From assembly GCA_013178015.1 (NCBI GenBank), contig JABLXR010000035.1, positions 1 to 43,264 of the forward strand: DNA of 43,264 nucleotides, given 5' to 3'. The notes under the pieces were generated by a model. That model saw only the letters and a program-made list of their open reading frames with translations, made no database searches and had not been told where the DNA came from. Below are positions 1,610-43,264 of the stretch, in pieces; the first letter of the stretch is position 1, and every line of letters starts with the position of its first letter. Both the position numbers and the translations under genes were made by a program. This DNA is from Anaerolineae bacterium (GTDB taxonomy: Bacteria; Chloroflexota; Anaerolineae; DRVO01).

Positions 1610-2497
1610 GTGAAGATCTGGGACTGCCACTGCCACGCCCAGGGCAACGAGACGGGCGATCAGGTCCTGAGGTGGATGGACGAGGCTGGGCTGGACCGCA
1701 TCTGCCTGTTCAGCCAGTATCCTCCGGGACGCTCCGCCGGCTCAGGCGTAGGACATAGTTCCTTCCGCCTCACCGGGCACCTGCGTCCCAACGATCGGGC
1801 TCAGGTCACCTATAGGCGGGAGGACGTCCGCGCCGCGGCCGACCACATCGCCGCCGTGCAAGCAGCCGACCCTGACCGCATCTTCGGGCTGCTCTGGGTC
1901 GAGCCCCGGACGCCGGGCATCCTGGAAGAGATCGAGTATGCCCTGGGGGACAGGAACCTTCGCGGGGTGAAGATGATCCCCGATCACTGGTCGCCCCTGG
2001 ACGAGATGATGTACCCGATCTACGAGAAGATGGAGGAGATGGGCAAGCCCATCCAGTTCCACTCGGGCATACTGTACGGGTTCGACGACAGCTCCCGCTT
2101 CTGCCGCCCTGTCCTCTACGAGGTGCTGGTGCACTTCCCCAAGCTCCGCTTCAGCCTGGCTCACATTGGCTGGCCCTGGGTGGACGAGTGCCTGGCGGTG
2201 TTCGGGCGCTTCCGTGCCGCCCGACGGGGCACCGATGAGGAGCCACAGATGTGGGTGGACACCTGCCGCGGCACCCCTGACGCCTGGCGCGAGGAGGCTC
2301 TGGCCAAAGCTGTGCCCTTCTGCGGCATGGACCACCTCATGTTCGGGGTGGACGCCTCACCTGAGCGGCTGCCTGAGAACGCGCCCGTGCATGTAGCCAA
2401 GGACCTGACCATCCTGCGCGGGGTCATGGGGCTGTCACAGGAGCAGATCGAGACCTTCTTCTGGGGCGCAGCGGCGAAGTTCTACGGTGATACGTGA
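1610..2497 (+). CDS. Amidohydrolase-2 family metal-dependent hydrolase
   Basis: The protein has 295 aa with a TIM-barrel amidohydrolase signature: DCHCH near the N-terminus (His7, His9), FHSG (His151), LAHIGWPW (His185) and GVDAS (Asp248). This set matches Amidohydro_2 enzymes, which hydrolyse or decarboxylate small cyclic or acid substrates; the substrate cannot be told. GTG 1610 is chosen for the AGGAGGG at 1597-1603. The last codons GGT GAT ACG TGA are part of the left arm of the inverted repeat 2486-2567, so the natural C-terminus has been set or altered by that element. It lies 19 nt after the membrane protein gene and is probably co-transcribed with it. Confidence 0.88.
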   Translation: MKIWDCHCHAQGNETGDQVLRWMDEAGLDRICLFSQYPPGRSAGSGVGHSSFRLTGHLRPNDRAQVTYRREDVRAAADHIAAVQAADPDRIFGLLWVEPRTPGILEEIEYALGDRNLRGVKMIPDHWSPLDEMMYPIYEKMEEMGKPIQFHSGILYGFDDSSRFCRPVLYEVLVHFPKLRFSLAHIGWPWVDECLAVFGRFRAARRGTDEEPQMWVDTCRGTPDAWREEALAKAVPFCGMDHLMFGVDASPERLPENAPVHVAKDLTILRGVMGLSQEQIETFFWGAAAKFYGDT

Positions 2498-2567
2498 TGC
2501 GTGACGCGTGATCCACCGCGCGCCGCGGCGCAGGATCACCTACCACGCGTCACGGGTCACGCATCAC
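2486..2567. repeat. GTGAYRC heptamer palindrome between convergent genes
   Basis: Heptamer units GTGATAC, GTGATGC, GTGACGC in the left arm (2487-2510) pair with the right arm (2544-2567). The 24-nt arms differ at three positions. The TGA stop of the upstream amidohydrolase (2495-2497) and the stop of the convergent deacetylase gene (2550-2552, minus strand) both lie inside the arms. A larger copy of the same family is at 41208-41315. Confidence 0.85.
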
Positions 2568-3446
2568 TTCCCGCGGTCTCCGGTAGCCGATCGAGATCAC
2601 CCCTGCTTCCTCCAGCGCGCGGGCCAGGTCGGGGTCGCTGAAGGTCTCCCAGTCGCCGGCTCTCTGCGCCAGGCGCGTCTCTCCCAGGATGGCGCGCGAC
2701 TCGGGCGTGGGCCGGCAGGGATGGTAGATCAGGTGGGTGAGCCCGGGCTCCAGGTTGCGCAGCACCTCGTGGTAGCGGGCACGGATGTCCTCCCCCGGCT
2801 GCATGTGCGGCATCACCAGGTGATCCACCAGGAGCAAGTCGCTAGTGCTCTCCAGAAGGCGCAGCCCGTGTACCAGGGCCTCCGCCTGCTGCGCCGGTAC
2901 ACCCTGTGCCATCACGGCCTCCTTGGTCAGGCGAGGCAGCATCACCGGAAGCCCAAACTCCCGGCCGAGGCCAAGGTACGGTTCCAGCAGCGATGGGTGA
3001 GCGATGGCGCCCATGTGCGTGTCTATGTGGGTGACGTCTATGCCCGCCCTCAAAGCGTGCTCCACCTGAGCCCGCATCTCTGCCACGGCGGCTCCGGGGT
3101 CCATGTGCGCGTGCAGCGGAGGTAGGTCAGGCCAGAGGTAGCCCTGGTCATCGAGGAGGCCACTGGTGGCGTCACGGGTGGAGACAGGCCCCCAGCGGTA
3201 GGTCTGCCACTCGCTGGTGAGGGTGAGGTGCACGCCTATGTCGGCCTCCGGATGGGCCTGGGCGAGTTGCGACAGGTGCAGGAACCAGGGGCAGGGAACC
3301 ATGACCGAGCCGCAGTTGACCACCCCTGCCGCCAGGATGTCCTCGAAGGCAGCGTTGGCGGCATGACACATCCCCAGGTCGTCGGCGTGAGCGATGACCA
3401 CGCGTTGTGAGGGATCGAATCCCAGCCTCTCCAATGCCGATGCCAT
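2550..3446 (-). CDS. YdjC/ChbG-like carbohydrate deacetylase
   Basis: The protein has 298 aa. The N-terminal AHADDLGMC gives the metal- and catalysis-linked Asp pair (Asp22/Asp23) of the YdjC/ChbG family; GVHLTLT (His73) and VTHIDTHMG (His140, His144) supply the His ligands. Family members deacetylate N-acetylated oligosaccharides such as chitobiose. ATG 3446 is preceded by GGAGG; a longer frame to 3677 lacks support. The last five residues (VMRDP) and the stop are encoded by the right arm of the 2486-2567 repeat. It may be expressed with the nitrilase and URO-D genes upstream, although 357 nt separate it from the former. Confidence 0.88.
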   Translation of the reverse strand: MASALERLGFDPSQRVVIAHADDLGMCHAANAAFEDILAAGVVNCGSVMVPCPWFLHLSQLAQAHPEADIGVHLTLTSEWQTYRWGPVSTRDATSGLLDDQGYLWPDLPPLHAHMDPGAAVAEMRAQVEHALRAGIDVTHIDTHMGAIAHPSLLEPYLGLGREFGLPVMLPRLTKEAVMAQGVPAQQAEALVHGLRLLESTSDLLLVDHLVMPHMQPGEDIRARYHEVLRNLEPGLTHLIYHPCRPTPESRAILGETRLAQRAGDWETFSDPDLARALEEAGVISIGYRRPREVMRDP

Positions 3447-3803
3447 GTTGACCTCCGACTGAACCGCGTAAGGTGTGTAGCGTCGGCGCAGTAGCCCTCG
3501 ACCGAGGTCGGGGCTAGTGGACCTGGCGGCCGGGTGTCCGCCTACGCGGACACGGGGCGGCAAGGGTCCCAGCGCGGGGGCGGGCCCCACAGGCATGGTA
3601 GTCCGTCGGCGGGGCGAATGCCCGGGGGTCGCCTTGACGCCGGCAGGCGCGATCTTTCGGCTGTGGGTCCGCAGCAATAGTTGCGGCCGCGCCGTTTCCG
3701 CTGGCCCCCTCTACGGCGAGCCCCCAGCCCACGAGCAGCGGGCTGTGCCTGAATGCTCGGGGGTTTTGGGGCGCGAGCTCGACCCGCGTCGCCTGAGCGG
3801 AGG
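3447..3803. other. GC-rich intergenic region, no convincing gene
   Basis: The open frames here have low-complexity, Arg/Pro/Ala-rich translations and no RBS-supported start. A short hairpin-like stretch (GGCGAATGCCCGGGGGTCGCC-type) lies near 3616-3637. On the minus strand TACACA near 3473-3478 could be a -10 box for the deacetylase, but the -35 is weak. Confidence 0.4.
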
Positions 3804-4682: not shown

Positions 4683-4706
4683 TTCGCCCCCTGGGGGAGA
4701 GGGGGT

Positions 4707-4806
4707 GACACGGAGAGGGGGAGACACCGCACACCGTCAGTGCCCAGTGTCACGCCGTCTCCCTATCTCCCTCTCTCCCCCTCTCCGTGTCTCCGCGTCT
4801 CTGTGG
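4707..4806. repeat. GGAGACACGGAG-type inverted repeat
   Basis: An 18-nt arm at 4707-4724 (GACACGGAGAGGGGGAGA) has its exact reverse complement at 4774-4791. The right half continues to 4806 with GCCACAGAGACGCGGAGAC on the minus strand, ending directly at the TAG stop of the 4807-5925 gene. Related GAGACACGGAG pieces occur at 38822-38850 and 38929-38946. Confidence 0.8.
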
Positions 4807-5925
4807 CTATCCCGGCCGACCGCCCAGGCTGCTCACATCGAAATCCCGGGCGGCGTGGAAGCAGGCGATGATGTTCTCCACCGAGGTGTCGGGCTGGATC
4901 ACGTTGGACGGGAAGACCACCAATCCGCCATTGTAGCCGCACTTGCGGATGAGGTGCAGCACCTCCTGGCGCACTTCCTCCGGGGTGCCGTAGGGGAGGG
5001 TGCGCTGCAGGCTGATGCCGCCATGGATGGTGATCTTGTCGCCCCAGCGCCGCTTGACCTCGACTGGGTCCATGCACTCCGGCTGCACCGGGTTGATGAC
5101 GTTGAACCCGATCTCTACCAGGTCATCCATCAGGTCCATGACGTTGCCATCGCTATGGATGAAGAAGAAGACGTCCGGGTTGATGGCGCGGCAGTCCTCG
5201 ATCAGCTTGGCCATGCGAGGCTTATCCACTTCACGCCATGATTTGGGGCCCATGATGATGCGGTCCTGCATGGCGATGTCCCCGGTGACACCGATCTGGT
5301 CCACCCCGGCGCGCACGGCCCGCTTACAGATCTCGCCGTAGAGGGCGTAGAAGCGGTCGTAGATGGCTTCCAGGATGTCCCGGTTGATGAGGTAGTCGGC
5401 CAGGAGGTTATCCATGCCCCGCAGCTCCCAGGCGTCGCGGTAGGGGTTGCCGACGCCGGCGCTCACGTAGAACTGCTGCTCCTTGAGCTCCGCCACCCGC
5501 TGGGCGTAGTTCTCGGGCTCCACGATGTCGTCTAGGCTGGGCCAGGGATAAGCCTCCACGTCCGCCACGGACTGGGCGTTCTCCAGGGGGCCGCTCATCC
5601 ACTCGGAGTACCAGCCGCCCTCGCCGATACGGTAGCGCACGCCCCAAGGGTCCTCGTAGGTGCGATCATCTATCCAGACCACGGGCCGGCCCGGCAGGGG
5701 GCCCGGCCGCAGTTCGGCCCGCTTCTCGTACTCGGGCCTGGCAATCCAGGGAGTGAGGCCGGCCCACCCCTCGATGCCGAGTTCCTTGAGGACCACGTCC
5801 CAGTCGTCGGTATGGTAGTGCTCCTTGAGGCGCTGCTGCACTTCGTGGTGGAACCAGCCATCGGTAGGGGTGTGGTCCGGGATCTCGTGATTGAGCGCCG
5901 CTAGAATCCGCTCTCTCGGGGTCAT
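4807..5925 (-). CDS. Uroporphyrinogen decarboxylase (URO-D) family protein
   Basis: The protein has 372 aa and starts MTPRERILAALNHEIPDHTP, the usual start of the URO-D/MtaA branch, which includes corrinoid-dependent methyltransferases and proteins unrelated to heme synthesis. FFFIHSDGNV and INPVQPEC supply a His and a Cys in the positions where the methyltransferase branch binds zinc, and IHGGIS follows. No heme genes are nearby, so a methyltransferase-like or unknown role is more likely than true heme synthesis. ATG 5925 has GAGGAG 5 nt upstream. A TACAAT box on the minus strand at 5979-5984 is a candidate -10. Confidence 0.87.
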   Translation of the reverse strand: MTPRERILAALNHEIPDHTPTDGWFHHEVQQRLKEHYHTDDWDVVLKELGIEGWAGLTPWIARPEYEKRAELRPGPLPGRPVVWIDDRTYEDPWGVRYRIGEGGWYSEWMSGPLENAQSVADVEAYPWPSLDDIVEPENYAQRVAELKEQQFYVSAGVGNPYRDAWELRGMDNLLADYLINRDILEAIYDRFYALYGEICKRAVRAGVDQIGVTGDIAMQDRIIMGPKSWREVDKPRMAKLIEDCRAINPDVFFFIHSDGNVMDLMDDLVEIGFNVINPVQPECMDPVEVKRRWGDKITIHGGISLQRTLPYGTPEEVRQEVLHLIRKCGYNGGLVVFPSNVIQPDTSVENIIACFHAARDFDVSSLGGRPG

Positions 5926-37883: not shown

Positions 37884-37990
37884 AGTTAGGTTACAGGTTA
37901 CAGGGGACAGGTTGCAGGGAATGCCTCCGAGTAGCCTCTCTCTGTCCGCCGTAACCTGTTCCCTGTAACCTATCCCCCATAACCTACTCT
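37884..37990. repeat. TTACAGG-family inverted repeat, copy 1
   Basis: Arms at 37895-37915 and 37951-37971 agree at 19 of 21 positions after inversion, with the unit (T)AGGTTACAGG iterated. The TAG stop of the 37984 gene (37984-37986, minus) is the first triplet of a TAGGTTATGG unit. Confidence 0.8.
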
Positions 37991-38790: not shown

Positions 38791-38821
38791 GAGTTCCACT
38801 CCGTAACGCTGGTTCGGATCT

Positions 38822-38946
38822 CACCGCGGAGATCGCAGAGACCGCAGAGCGGGTCACAGGTTACAGGGGATAGGTCATAGGGATGTGCATCCAGCTATGC
38901 TACTCTATCCTCTGTAACCTGTTCCCTTCTCCGTGTCTTGGTGGCC
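38822..38946. repeat. Composite nested inverted repeat (TTACAGG copy 2 inside GAGACACGGAG arms)
   Basis: Inner arms CAGGTTACAGGGGATAG (38857-38873) and 38905-38921 match at 16 of 17. They are flanked by CACCGCGGAGATCGCAGAG (38822-38840) and, inverted, by GGCCACCAAGACACGGAGAA (38927-38946 minus), units of the other family at 4707-4806. It lies between the isomerase and the Gfo/Idh gene. Confidence 0.7.
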
Positions 38947-40149: not shown

Positions 40150-40262
40150 ACGGCAGAGGGCAGGGTACAGGGGATAGGTTACAGGGGTCAGGGATTGCCT
40201 ATTCAGGGCCTCTATCCTGCTCCCCTGCGACTTGCCCCCTAATACGTATGACCTACGCCCTG
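40150..40262. repeat. TTACAGG-family inverted repeat, copy 3 (degenerate)
   Basis: The left side reads ACAGGGGATAGGTTACAGGG (40167-40186); the right side (40212-40262) is a looser reverse complement. The stop codon of the epimerase (TAG, 40253-40255 on the minus strand) starts a TAGGTCATACG unit, nearly the same as TAGGTCATAGG in copy 2. Confidence 0.6.
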
Positions 40263-41207: not shown

Positions 41208-41315
41208 ATGACACGTGACACGTGATGCGTGATACGTGATGCGTGATACGTGACGCGTGACACACCTGCCTCGCGTATCACGCATCACGTGTCACGTATC
41301 ACGCATCACGTATCA
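41208..41315. repeat. GTGAYRC heptamer palindrome (long copy)
   Basis: The left side (41208-41263) holds about eight heptamers of the form GTGAYRC; the right side (41272-41315) holds about six on the other strand. Pairing of GTGACACGTGATGCGTGATA in both orientations is exact. The TGA stop of the PBP gene (41313-41315, minus) is the start of a TGATACG unit. Confidence 0.85.
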
Positions 41316-43264
41316 TCCCGTCACTGTCACCTGCACATGTTCGGTCTCGGCGCTGTTGCCGGCGGCATCATAGCCGATGGCCCAGACCTCGTGCTGACCG
41401 GCTGGCACGTCTGTCAGCATCACCTTGAAGGCATAGGGTGTGACCGTGCTCATCCCGATCTGGGCGCCGTCCAGGTAGAACTCTACTCTATCCATCCGGA
41501 GGTTGTCCACAGCATCCACCTGAATGGTGAACCAGGCCCCTTCCACGTCGCTGCGGGAGTGCTTGCTGCCTGGGTAGGGATGGTTGAGCTTCACCTGGGG
41601 TGGCTCGTTGTCTACCGTCACTTGCACGTTGGCGAGCCACTCTGCGTGGTTGTGGTCCACCACCGAGAGCTGGATGGTGTAGAGGCCCGATAGCCCGGTG
41701 GTGTCCCAGTATTCGAGGGTGCCATTGTCCACCTGATGGCCGTGTTCGGACCCGATGGTCATCCAGGCTGACGGATTGAGCCCCTCCCCGTACTTGAGCC
41801 GGTAGACAGCCTGGTTGGGCACTCGGGCATTGCCCGCGATCTCCACCACACCGCGGACATACTGGTAAGGGGCGGGGCGAAGGATGGCTGCCTCTTGGGC
41901 GGCGGAGCCTTCCTCCGGCAAGGGGTCGTATTCGGTGGGCGGCTGGGGTATCCCGGCCATGCGCACCCAGTCGGCTGCCTCAGGTGGGTAGATCTCGTAC
42001 ACGCGCTCTTCCACCAGTTCCGCCGGCGTGTATACCGTGGCCAGCCGGCCCGTCTCCCGGTTCACCCGAAAGACCTGATGCATGGTGCAGTAGCCGGTGG
42101 GTTCAGTCCCCTCGACGAAGATCTCGGTTCTGGTGTGGGGGCAGTGATCGGTAGCCAGCTGGCCCGAGAGGGCGCACACCTTCTCCTCAACGATGCCGGG
42201 CGGTCGCTGGAACTCCATCACGGGCAAACCCTCGTGCAGCTTGAGCATGATCTCGTGGTAGATAGGGCCGGCACCAGTGGAGCCGAGCAGCCGGTTCATC
42301 TTGGTGCGGTCTGCATTGCCGATCCACACGCCTACGGCGTACTGGGGGGTGAAACCCATGGTCCAGGCATCGCGATTGTCGTTGGTCGAACCGGTCTTGG
42401 TGGCCACCGGCCGGTCGGGCAGGACCAGGTTAGCAGCGCTGGCCCCGAAGGCAGGCGCGCGCGCTGCCGTGTCCGAGAGGATGCTTTGGAGCACGTAGGC
42501 GTACTGCGGCTCCACCACCCGGCGCACTTCTGGCTGGGTGTACTGCTTGAGGATGTTCCCCTCCGAGTCCTCCACCAGCAGGATGGCCACGGGGTCGAGC
42601 TCGCGGAATCCGGGGCGGCGCTCCCAGGCAGGCACGGGCTGCCCGGCCATGTGTCCCCCGTTAGCCACTACGCTGTAGCCGTAGGTATGGTCCAGTAGCT
42701 TCACCTCTCGGGCCCCCAAGGCCAAGCTCAGTCCGTAGTAGTCGTCCGTGAGGGTGGTGATGCCCATCCTTCGGGCCATGGCTACCACATTGGGTATGCC
42801 CACCATGTCGAGGAGCTTGACCGCTGGTATGTTGTAGGAGCAGGCCAGGGCCGAACGGAGCGTCTGGGCTCCGTGATACTGCATGTCTATGTTCATGGGT
42901 GAGTAGGGCTCGTTGGGCGGGTCGGGGAAGGTGGTGGGGATATCCATCACCACGGTGGCGGCGGTATAGCCCTGCTCGAAGGCGGTCAAGTAGACGTAGG
43001 GCTTGAAGGAGGACCCCGGCTGGCGAGGCGCCAGGGCCATGTTGACCTGCCCGTCTATCGCCTCGTTGTAGTAGTCCACGCTGCCCACCATGGCTAAGAT
43101 CTCGCCCGTCTGGGGCCGGAGGATCACCACAGCGGCGTTGTTGGCGTTGTTGGGCACGCCGTACTCCGCGATCTTCCGGGCGGCCACCTCCTGAGCCATG
43201 TTCTGGATGTCCAGGTCCAGGGTGGTGTAGACCCGAAGGCCACGGCGATACATGGCCTCGCCGT
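41313..43264 (-). CDS. Penicillin-binding protein 1A family (N-terminus outside window)
   Basis: At least 650 aa are visible, entering from beyond 43264. The transpeptidase domain shows GSSFKPY (SxxK), SYNIPAVK (SxN) and ATKTGSTNDNRDAW (KTG), so it cross-links peptidoglycan in the periplasm. The glycosyltransferase domain would lie in the missing part. After the transpeptidase come about 220 residues with two Ig-like beta domains (YRLKYGEGLNPSAW and VKLNHPYPGSKHSRSD), a C-terminal extension known in some PBP1A/PBP1C proteins. The gene ends inside the heptamer repeat. Partial because of the window edge. Confidence 0.92.
   Translation of the reverse strand, partial: GEAMYRRGLRVYTTLDLDIQNMAQEVAARKIAEYGVPNNANNAAVVILRPQTGEILAMVGSVDYYNEAIDGQVNMALAPRQPGSSFKPYVYLTAFEQGYTAATVVMDIPTTFPDPPNEPYSPMNIDMQYHGAQTLRSALACSYNIPAVKLLDMVGIPNVVAMARRMGITTLTDDYYGLSLALGAREVKLLDHTYGYSVVANGGHMAGQPVPAWERRPGFRELDPVAILLVEDSEGNILKQYTQPEVRRVVEPQYAYVLQSILSDTAARAPAFGASAANLVLPDRPVATKTGSTNDNRDAWTMGFTPQYAVGVWIGNADRTKMNRLLGSTGAGPIYHEIMLKLHEGLPVMEFQRPPGIVEEKVCALSGQLATDHCPHTRTEIFVEGTEPTGYCTMHQVFRVNRETGRLATVYTPAELVEERVYEIYPPEAADWVRMAGIPQPPTEYDPLPEEGSAAQEAAILRPAPYQYVRGVVEIAGNARVPNQAVYRLKYGEGLNPSAWMTIGSEHGHQVDNGTLEYWDTTGLSGLYTIQLSVVDHNHAEWLANVQVTVDNEPPQVKLNHPYPGSKHSRSDVEGAWFTIQVDAVDNLRMDRVEFYLDGAQIGMSTVTPYAFKVMLTDVPAGQHEVWAIGYDAAGNSAETEHVQVTVTG

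Follow-up and report, generated by a model that had tools for sequence, protein, structure and literature searches.

Arrays of heterogeneous 7-nt units with both fixed and free positions (GGGAATC and GGGGA(C/T)T) have been described in Xanthomonas and Nostoc, where they are rare between divergent ORFs and show high turnover between species, and in Xanthomonas about 70-75 convergent inverted pairs per genome lie in intergenic regions, nearer to the upstream ORF (PMC4692102). Another heptamer, TAACTGA, is repeated in Beggiatoaceae, Cyanobacteria and Bacteroidetes, a patchy occurrence over distant phyla (PMC4679880). REPs, which include the GTAG palindromes, are dispersed and intergenic, are found between convergent or co-oriented genes, are avoided between divergent ones and frequently supply a TAG stop codon (PMC3733652); they are also targets of IS elements (PMC1525189).

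The element studied here, at positions 2487-2567 of a 43,264-nt stretch from an Anaerolineae bacterium (Chloroflexota; contig JABLXR010000035.1, the whole stretch being called the window below), is built of GTGAYRC heptamers in two convergent arms with an 18-nt loop between them, and both of the convergent genes that meet there end in it (Table 1). Our literature search found no mention of a repeat with the string GTGATGCGTGAT, no link between Chloroflexi/Chloroflexota and heptamer repeats, and no description of this array family. Arrays of this kind offer a clean, frame-independent test of whether repeats at gene ends are tolerated, targeted or selected.

The element in the window

The preliminary description of this DNA had reported an inverted repeat with two 24-nt heptamer arms. 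The inverted arrangement holds, but the arms measure 28 and 35 nt when the inner, imperfect units are included. The ORFs bear out its placement of one stop codon in each arm, and its count of three repeat-derived terminal residues for the amidohydrolase and five for the YdjC-like protein is equally correct. Double heptamers with at most two mismatches occur 22 times in the window, against 3.6 expected, a number reached in none of 100 shuffles.

Table 1. GTGAYRC arrays of the window and the genes that end in them
Feature	Position	Strand	Details
Amidohydrolase (PF04909)	1610..2497	+	stop 2495-2497 = TGA of left-arm unit 2; array-coded tail (G)DT
Left arm	2487..2514	+	GTGATAC GTGATGC GTGACGC GTGATCC
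Loop, G+C-rich	2515..2532		from sequence and RNA fold
Right arm	2533..2567	-	GTGATGC GTGACCC GTGACGC GTGGTAG GTGATCC (minus-strand reading)
YdjC-like protein (PF04794)	2550..3596	-	stop 2550-2552 = TGA of right-arm unit 3; array-coded tail VMRDP; start codon uncertain
Second, larger element copy (units 8 + 7)	41208..41316		abuts 3' end of the minus-strand gene reaching the window's right edge

Genome-wide catalogue and structure of the unit

The genome (4.57 Mb, 97 contigs) holds 218 perfect double heptamers, whereas the reversed control pattern gave none. They fall into about 43 array sites, 34 of which, each with a cluster of three or more perfect units, were catalogued. Array loci were retrieved with 3 kb flanks, and the context statistics refer to 38 stretches plus the window (266 kb), in which genes were called with a home-made hexamer-based caller; apart from the two Pfam-tested proteins (amidohydrolase and YdjC-like), gene names were read off the sequences. 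Intact arrays are typically 75-146 bp long with about six units per arm, and the arms always point inwards (40 matches against 0 arms-out), an orientation that also predominates in a second genome rich in arrays (27 against 4).

Within the unit, positions 1-4 are constant at 95-99% and position 7 at 87%, while position 5 is nearly only T or C and position 6 nearly only A or G, so that the free step is almost always pyrimidine-purine. At these two positions the arms of one element match no better than shuffled arms (58 observed, 57.5-58.8 expected), and thus no pairing constraint is visible there. Adjacent units of mixed arrays are no more alike than chance (lag-1 similarity 0.278 vs 0.304 by chance here, 0.474 vs 0.471 elsewhere); an excess at lag 3 (21 bp) in this genome (P 0.0025) was not replicated elsewhere (P 0.17). 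Different elements have no runs of units in common beyond the shuffled level, the catalogued copies share no flanks or loops but only the heptamer, and among the array copies we found no terminal sequence, no target-site duplication and no near-identical pair. Simple slippage, arm-to-arm copying and fixed-copy transposition are therefore poor accounts of the arrays, and three candidate processes were rejected: copying of the palindrome from one arm to the other, or covariation, because mirror identity is at chance, plain slippage because neighbouring units lack excess similarity, and spread as identical copies because shared unit runs do not exceed those in shuffles.

Further repeat families are present. 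Heptamers resembling AGGTTAC or AGGGGAC form similar inverted arrays at 37884-37990, 38852-38881 and 40150-40250 of the window and at loci L083, L094 and L099; inverted octamer arrays resembling GGAGACAC or GGAGAGGG lie in intergenic gaps (window 4693-4811; L091:4328-4472; L104:54-180), and nonamer arrays (CGCAGAGAN) have inverted partners (window 38820-38854; L098:103-1059; L094:3407-3584). The genome thus contains families with units of 7, 8 and 9 nt that share one architecture.

Placement at gene 3' ends and supply of stop codons

All 28 assessable arrays overlap a gene 3' end or lie within 10 nt of one. Of the non-coding bases in convergent and tandem gaps, only 9.8% lie 12 nt or less from a 3' end, and the chance probability of such an outcome is about 1e-28. 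Inside genes there were none among the 28, and divergent gaps, which make up 32% of the non-coding bases, hold at most one of 30 arrays and none of the assessable ones (P 1.3e-4); in the sole divergent-looking case (L096) an IS copy sits within the array and the right-hand neighbour belongs, according to the sister genome, beside another gene. Between co-oriented genes the array occupies the gap as far as a ribosome-binding stretch, in most cases 15-75 nt ahead of the following start codon. Among the matches listed from other genomes, which form an independent set, 72 of 94 convergent or tandem arrays are no more than 12 nt from a 3' end, and no array lies inside a gene.

Each unit contains a TGA, which recurs every 7 nt. 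As this period shifts the frame from one unit to the next, a reading frame that enters the array from either side runs into a stop within about 21 nt, whichever of the three it is. At 33 of the 41 contacted gene ends an in-phase TGA of the array is the stop (1/7 expected, P 4e-21), the remaining eight contacts having no in-phase array stop. The suspected enrichment of these repeats at gene ends, and their coincidence with stop codons, thus extend from the window to the whole genome. The array stops divide 10:11:12 over the frame classes, and this even use indicates that placement is blind to the reading frame. TGA accounts for 36 of the 41 stops at array-contacting ends (88%), compared with a background of 48% in the same stretches (P 1e-6). 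Where the second or third unit provides the stop, the protein acquires an array-coded tail such as -RDA, -RDT, -GDA or -VMRDP. In this way a non-coding repeat rewrites protein ends, supplying stops for dozens of genes, including the widespread pheT and fmt.

Comparison with relatives

Junctions were compared with a sister species (G025) and a member of the same family (G060), and those that lack the array in relatives include the following. At pheS/pheT the sister species has an 18-nt gap where the array lies here, and a tldD/tldE-like pair that nearly touches in G025 is separated here by an array, later split by an IS. The argC and purD/purM junctions are free of arrays in both relatives, which indicates that the arrays were gained in this lineage. 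At the YbaK/RelA junction both this genome and G025 carry a GTGAYRC array with differing units and G060 has none, pointing to a gain in the ancestor of the genus followed by turnover of the units. At the convergent junction of pheT with a peptidase gene, G025 has an intrinsic-terminator-like hairpin (GGGCGGGTCC...GGGCCCGCCCTTCTAGTTTG) and the array stands in this genome. Another orthologous junction (L084 2940-3170; L151 1200-1420 in G025) carries in the sister species an inverted array of AGTGGYC-like heptamers, as though one word had been swapped for another at this site, and at L093:2960-3180 the array loop holds a separate G+C-rich hairpin (GAGCGGGGCGTGATG...CATCACGCCCCGCTC), with a terminator-like hairpin at the end of that gene in the sister.

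In G025 the two genes of one convergent pair (L074) overlap tail-to-tail by about 49 nt; in the present genome an array lies within the overlap and both proteins have array-coded ends, YVGGDA and EVIRDA. This is direct evidence that both stops came from the array. The amidohydrolase of the window ends in FYGDT, its counterparts in FFGE (G025) and FYSGPA (G060); the YdjC-like protein ends in GYRRPREVMRDP, and its distant homologues, no close orthologue having been found in G025 or G060, end in GYRRLRDLIRGQA, GYRRLRDLLA and others. These different ends in array-free orthologues indicate that the stop moved by a few codons only and that new terminal residues arose. About 20 orthologous ends, read by eye, show stop shifts of roughly -9 to +3 codons.

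For the two genes of the window, then, the prediction of altered C-termini was borne out, with the YdjC comparison confined to distant homologues, and the outcome named as fatal to it, identical ends without the repeat, did not occur; at several other loci, however, the native stop position has been kept. The broader proposal, that the repeat replaced natural stops or is selected at gene ends, agrees with the 3'-end placement, the supplied stops and the altered tails.

RNA folding

Transcripts of the arrays are predicted to fold stably from both strands, at -50 to -79 kcal/mol. Fold z-scores for the two strands are -4.6 and -4.3 for the window copy at 2487-2567, and -10.6 and -9.2 for the larger one. 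In the window region no terminator-like T-run follows the stem, and no Rfam family matched in the window. The hairpin had been proposed to serve both transcripts as a bidirectional end; as put, this is not supported, given the missing T-run and the copies between co-oriented operon genes (pheS/pheT, purD/purM, tldD/tldE), where a terminator would make termination polar. Both points favour a tolerated REP-like element over a selected terminator. An effect of the arrays on mRNA decay is quite possible.

Distribution and mobile elements

In a survey of the class, double heptamers were present in 106 of 199 genomes, in very unequal numbers: two members of one genus have 315 and 4, and the present genome 218 against 4 in the sister species. 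A scan of bacteria and archaea with one genome per species returned, among the matches listed, mostly Chloroflexota (Anaerolineae, Oscillochloris), but also arrays of the same word labelled Bacteroidetes, Acidobacteria, Bacillota, Gammaproteobacteria and Limisphaerales; single taxon labels may be wrong, because most of these records are MAGs. The patchy presence of one word across distant lineages raises the question of its maker. Long homogeneous, microsatellite-type (GTGATGC)n runs occur in G123, G085, G175, G192 and G107 and contrast with the mixed, paired arrays of this genome. The inverted pattern was also seen on three viral contigs (L301, L302, L303), too few for a viral origin, which was rejected.

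Y1/RAYT transposases are encoded in 23 of 26 genomes, array-poor ones included, and a single Y1_Tnp in this genome; their presence showed no correlation with array number, which speaks against a RAYT as the mover. For the arrays themselves we found no transposase, no end sequence, no target duplication and no recent copy pair, so mobility of the arrays can be deduced from the gains only. The arrays are themselves used as targets. An IS481-like transposon of 1337 bp (NCBIfam transpos_IS481, 5e-16, below the cut-off) is present at L096:3081-4417 and on contigs C58, C76 and C87 of this genome (G000); the visible ends of the copies at C27, C58, C76 and C87 lie inside heptamer arrays, and the only copy elsewhere, at C46, has a 6-bp duplication (GCTGAG). 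Comparison with the sister locus (L145 of G025) suggests that recombination between IS copies split the tldD/tldE-like pair.

Why arrays persist at gene ends

We favour, at about even confidence, an explanation in which the built-in stops of a REP-like, non-coding inverted heptamer array account for its persistence at gene ends. The dispersed element consists of two convergent arms of about 4-9 degenerate GTGA-YR-C heptamers around a variable loop and is a passive universal stop in any frame and from either side; on this view it has been gained repeatedly at many loci and retained only at the least harmful sites. Insertion into the last codons, or later loss of the native stop and spacer, could be tolerated with the array closing the frame, and over time the array would come to abut coding ends, the ribosome-binding stretch surviving before a downstream gene. 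Its RNA is predicted to form a stable hairpin in 3' UTRs or between cistrons, lacking a T-run, and would more probably influence decay or spacing than act as a terminator. We infer that the tight placement results from purifying selection, which purges arrays elsewhere, together with spacer erosion, and we regard the RNA effect in the same conditional light. This would also offer an explanation for the abundance of heptamer repeats in bacteria, as stop-bearing units of a length not divisible by three would be safe at gene ends. Against tolerance it must be held that the contact is tighter than purging alone predicts, for insertions into the gap that leave the native stop in place ought to be frequent, yet an in-phase array stop is missing from only 8 of 41 contacts, and that the constancy of unit positions 1-4 and 7, with positions 5-6 free within YR, is unlike neutral debris.

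Selection for a bidirectional 3'-end element, in which the hairpin or a heptamer-bound protein ends or protects transcripts in place of ordinary terminators, could draw on the very stable folds of both strands (z -4.3 to -10.6), on the terminator-like hairpin that G025 has at the pheT/peptidase junction and on the heavy use of convergent gaps; it seems unlikely nevertheless, with the T-run absent, arrays inserted between operon genes that are 0-18 nt apart in the sister (pheS/pheT, tldD/tldE), and arms matching at positions 5-6 no better than shuffled ones. The close contact, with most arrays over the coding end rather than in the gap, would be expected if a mobile element or enzyme were actively aimed at stop-codon regions, terminator hairpins or transcript ends, and so might the frame-blind placement, the many gains in one lineage and the patchy copy number between congeners (315 vs 4, for example). 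We consider such aiming improbable, as the copies share no flank, target duplication or terminal sequence, Y1/RAYT transposases are found in 23 of 26 genomes whatever the arrays, and 22 of the 94 elements elsewhere, among the matches listed, are more than 12 nt from a 3' end. Growth in situ, by which short TGA-containing seeds near stops would expand into two arms through replication slippage or template switching, is quite improbable: pure (GTGATGC)n arrays of microsatellite type do exist in some other genomes, and the outermost units are often xTGAYRC starting at the native TGA (e.g., at the YbaK and RelA ends of both species), yet lag-1 similarity is at chance, the lag-3 excess is unreplicated, the arms are not mirror copies, and slippage explains neither two convergent arms nor the same word in distant families. 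Finally, a trans-acting system that writes or maintains GTGA-YR-C arrays throughout the Chloroflexota as programmed end punctuation, combining a frame-independent stop with an RNA- or protein-bound transcript end, is a very improbable conjecture.

Comparison with known repeats

The Xanthomonas heptamer arrays are the closest precedent, being likewise degenerate tandem 7-nt units in convergent pairs that are intergenic and near the 3' end of the upstream ORF. Their unit is G-rich, whereas GTGAYRC lacks G tracts of three or longer and does not form G-quadruplexes; moreover, the units here contain TGA, the arrays extend over the coding end, for which they supply the stop, and nearly all are paired arms-in. 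With REPs the elements have in common that they are multi-copy intergenic palindromes, mostly between convergent or co-oriented genes, but they possess neither a GTAG/CGTC foot nor a conserved single palindrome of 20-40 nt, form instead a tandem 7-nt array of variable length, and RAYT presence does not track their number. TAACTGA repeats are also heptamers that stop all three frames and are patchy over distant phyla; they differ in being direct rather than inverted and in lying mostly just upstream of start codons in Maribeggiatoa. Intrinsic (Rho-independent) terminators similarly place a stable hairpin after the stop codon, also one common to convergent genes, but the arrays have no T-run, have stems of up to about 50 bp and occur inside operons. 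The fixed terminal inverted repeats and target-site duplications of MITEs or transposon remnants are not seen, the ends having only heptamers in common. The array family resembles known bacterial repeats and is new in its word, in its near-constant pairing and in mostly overlapping the coding end.
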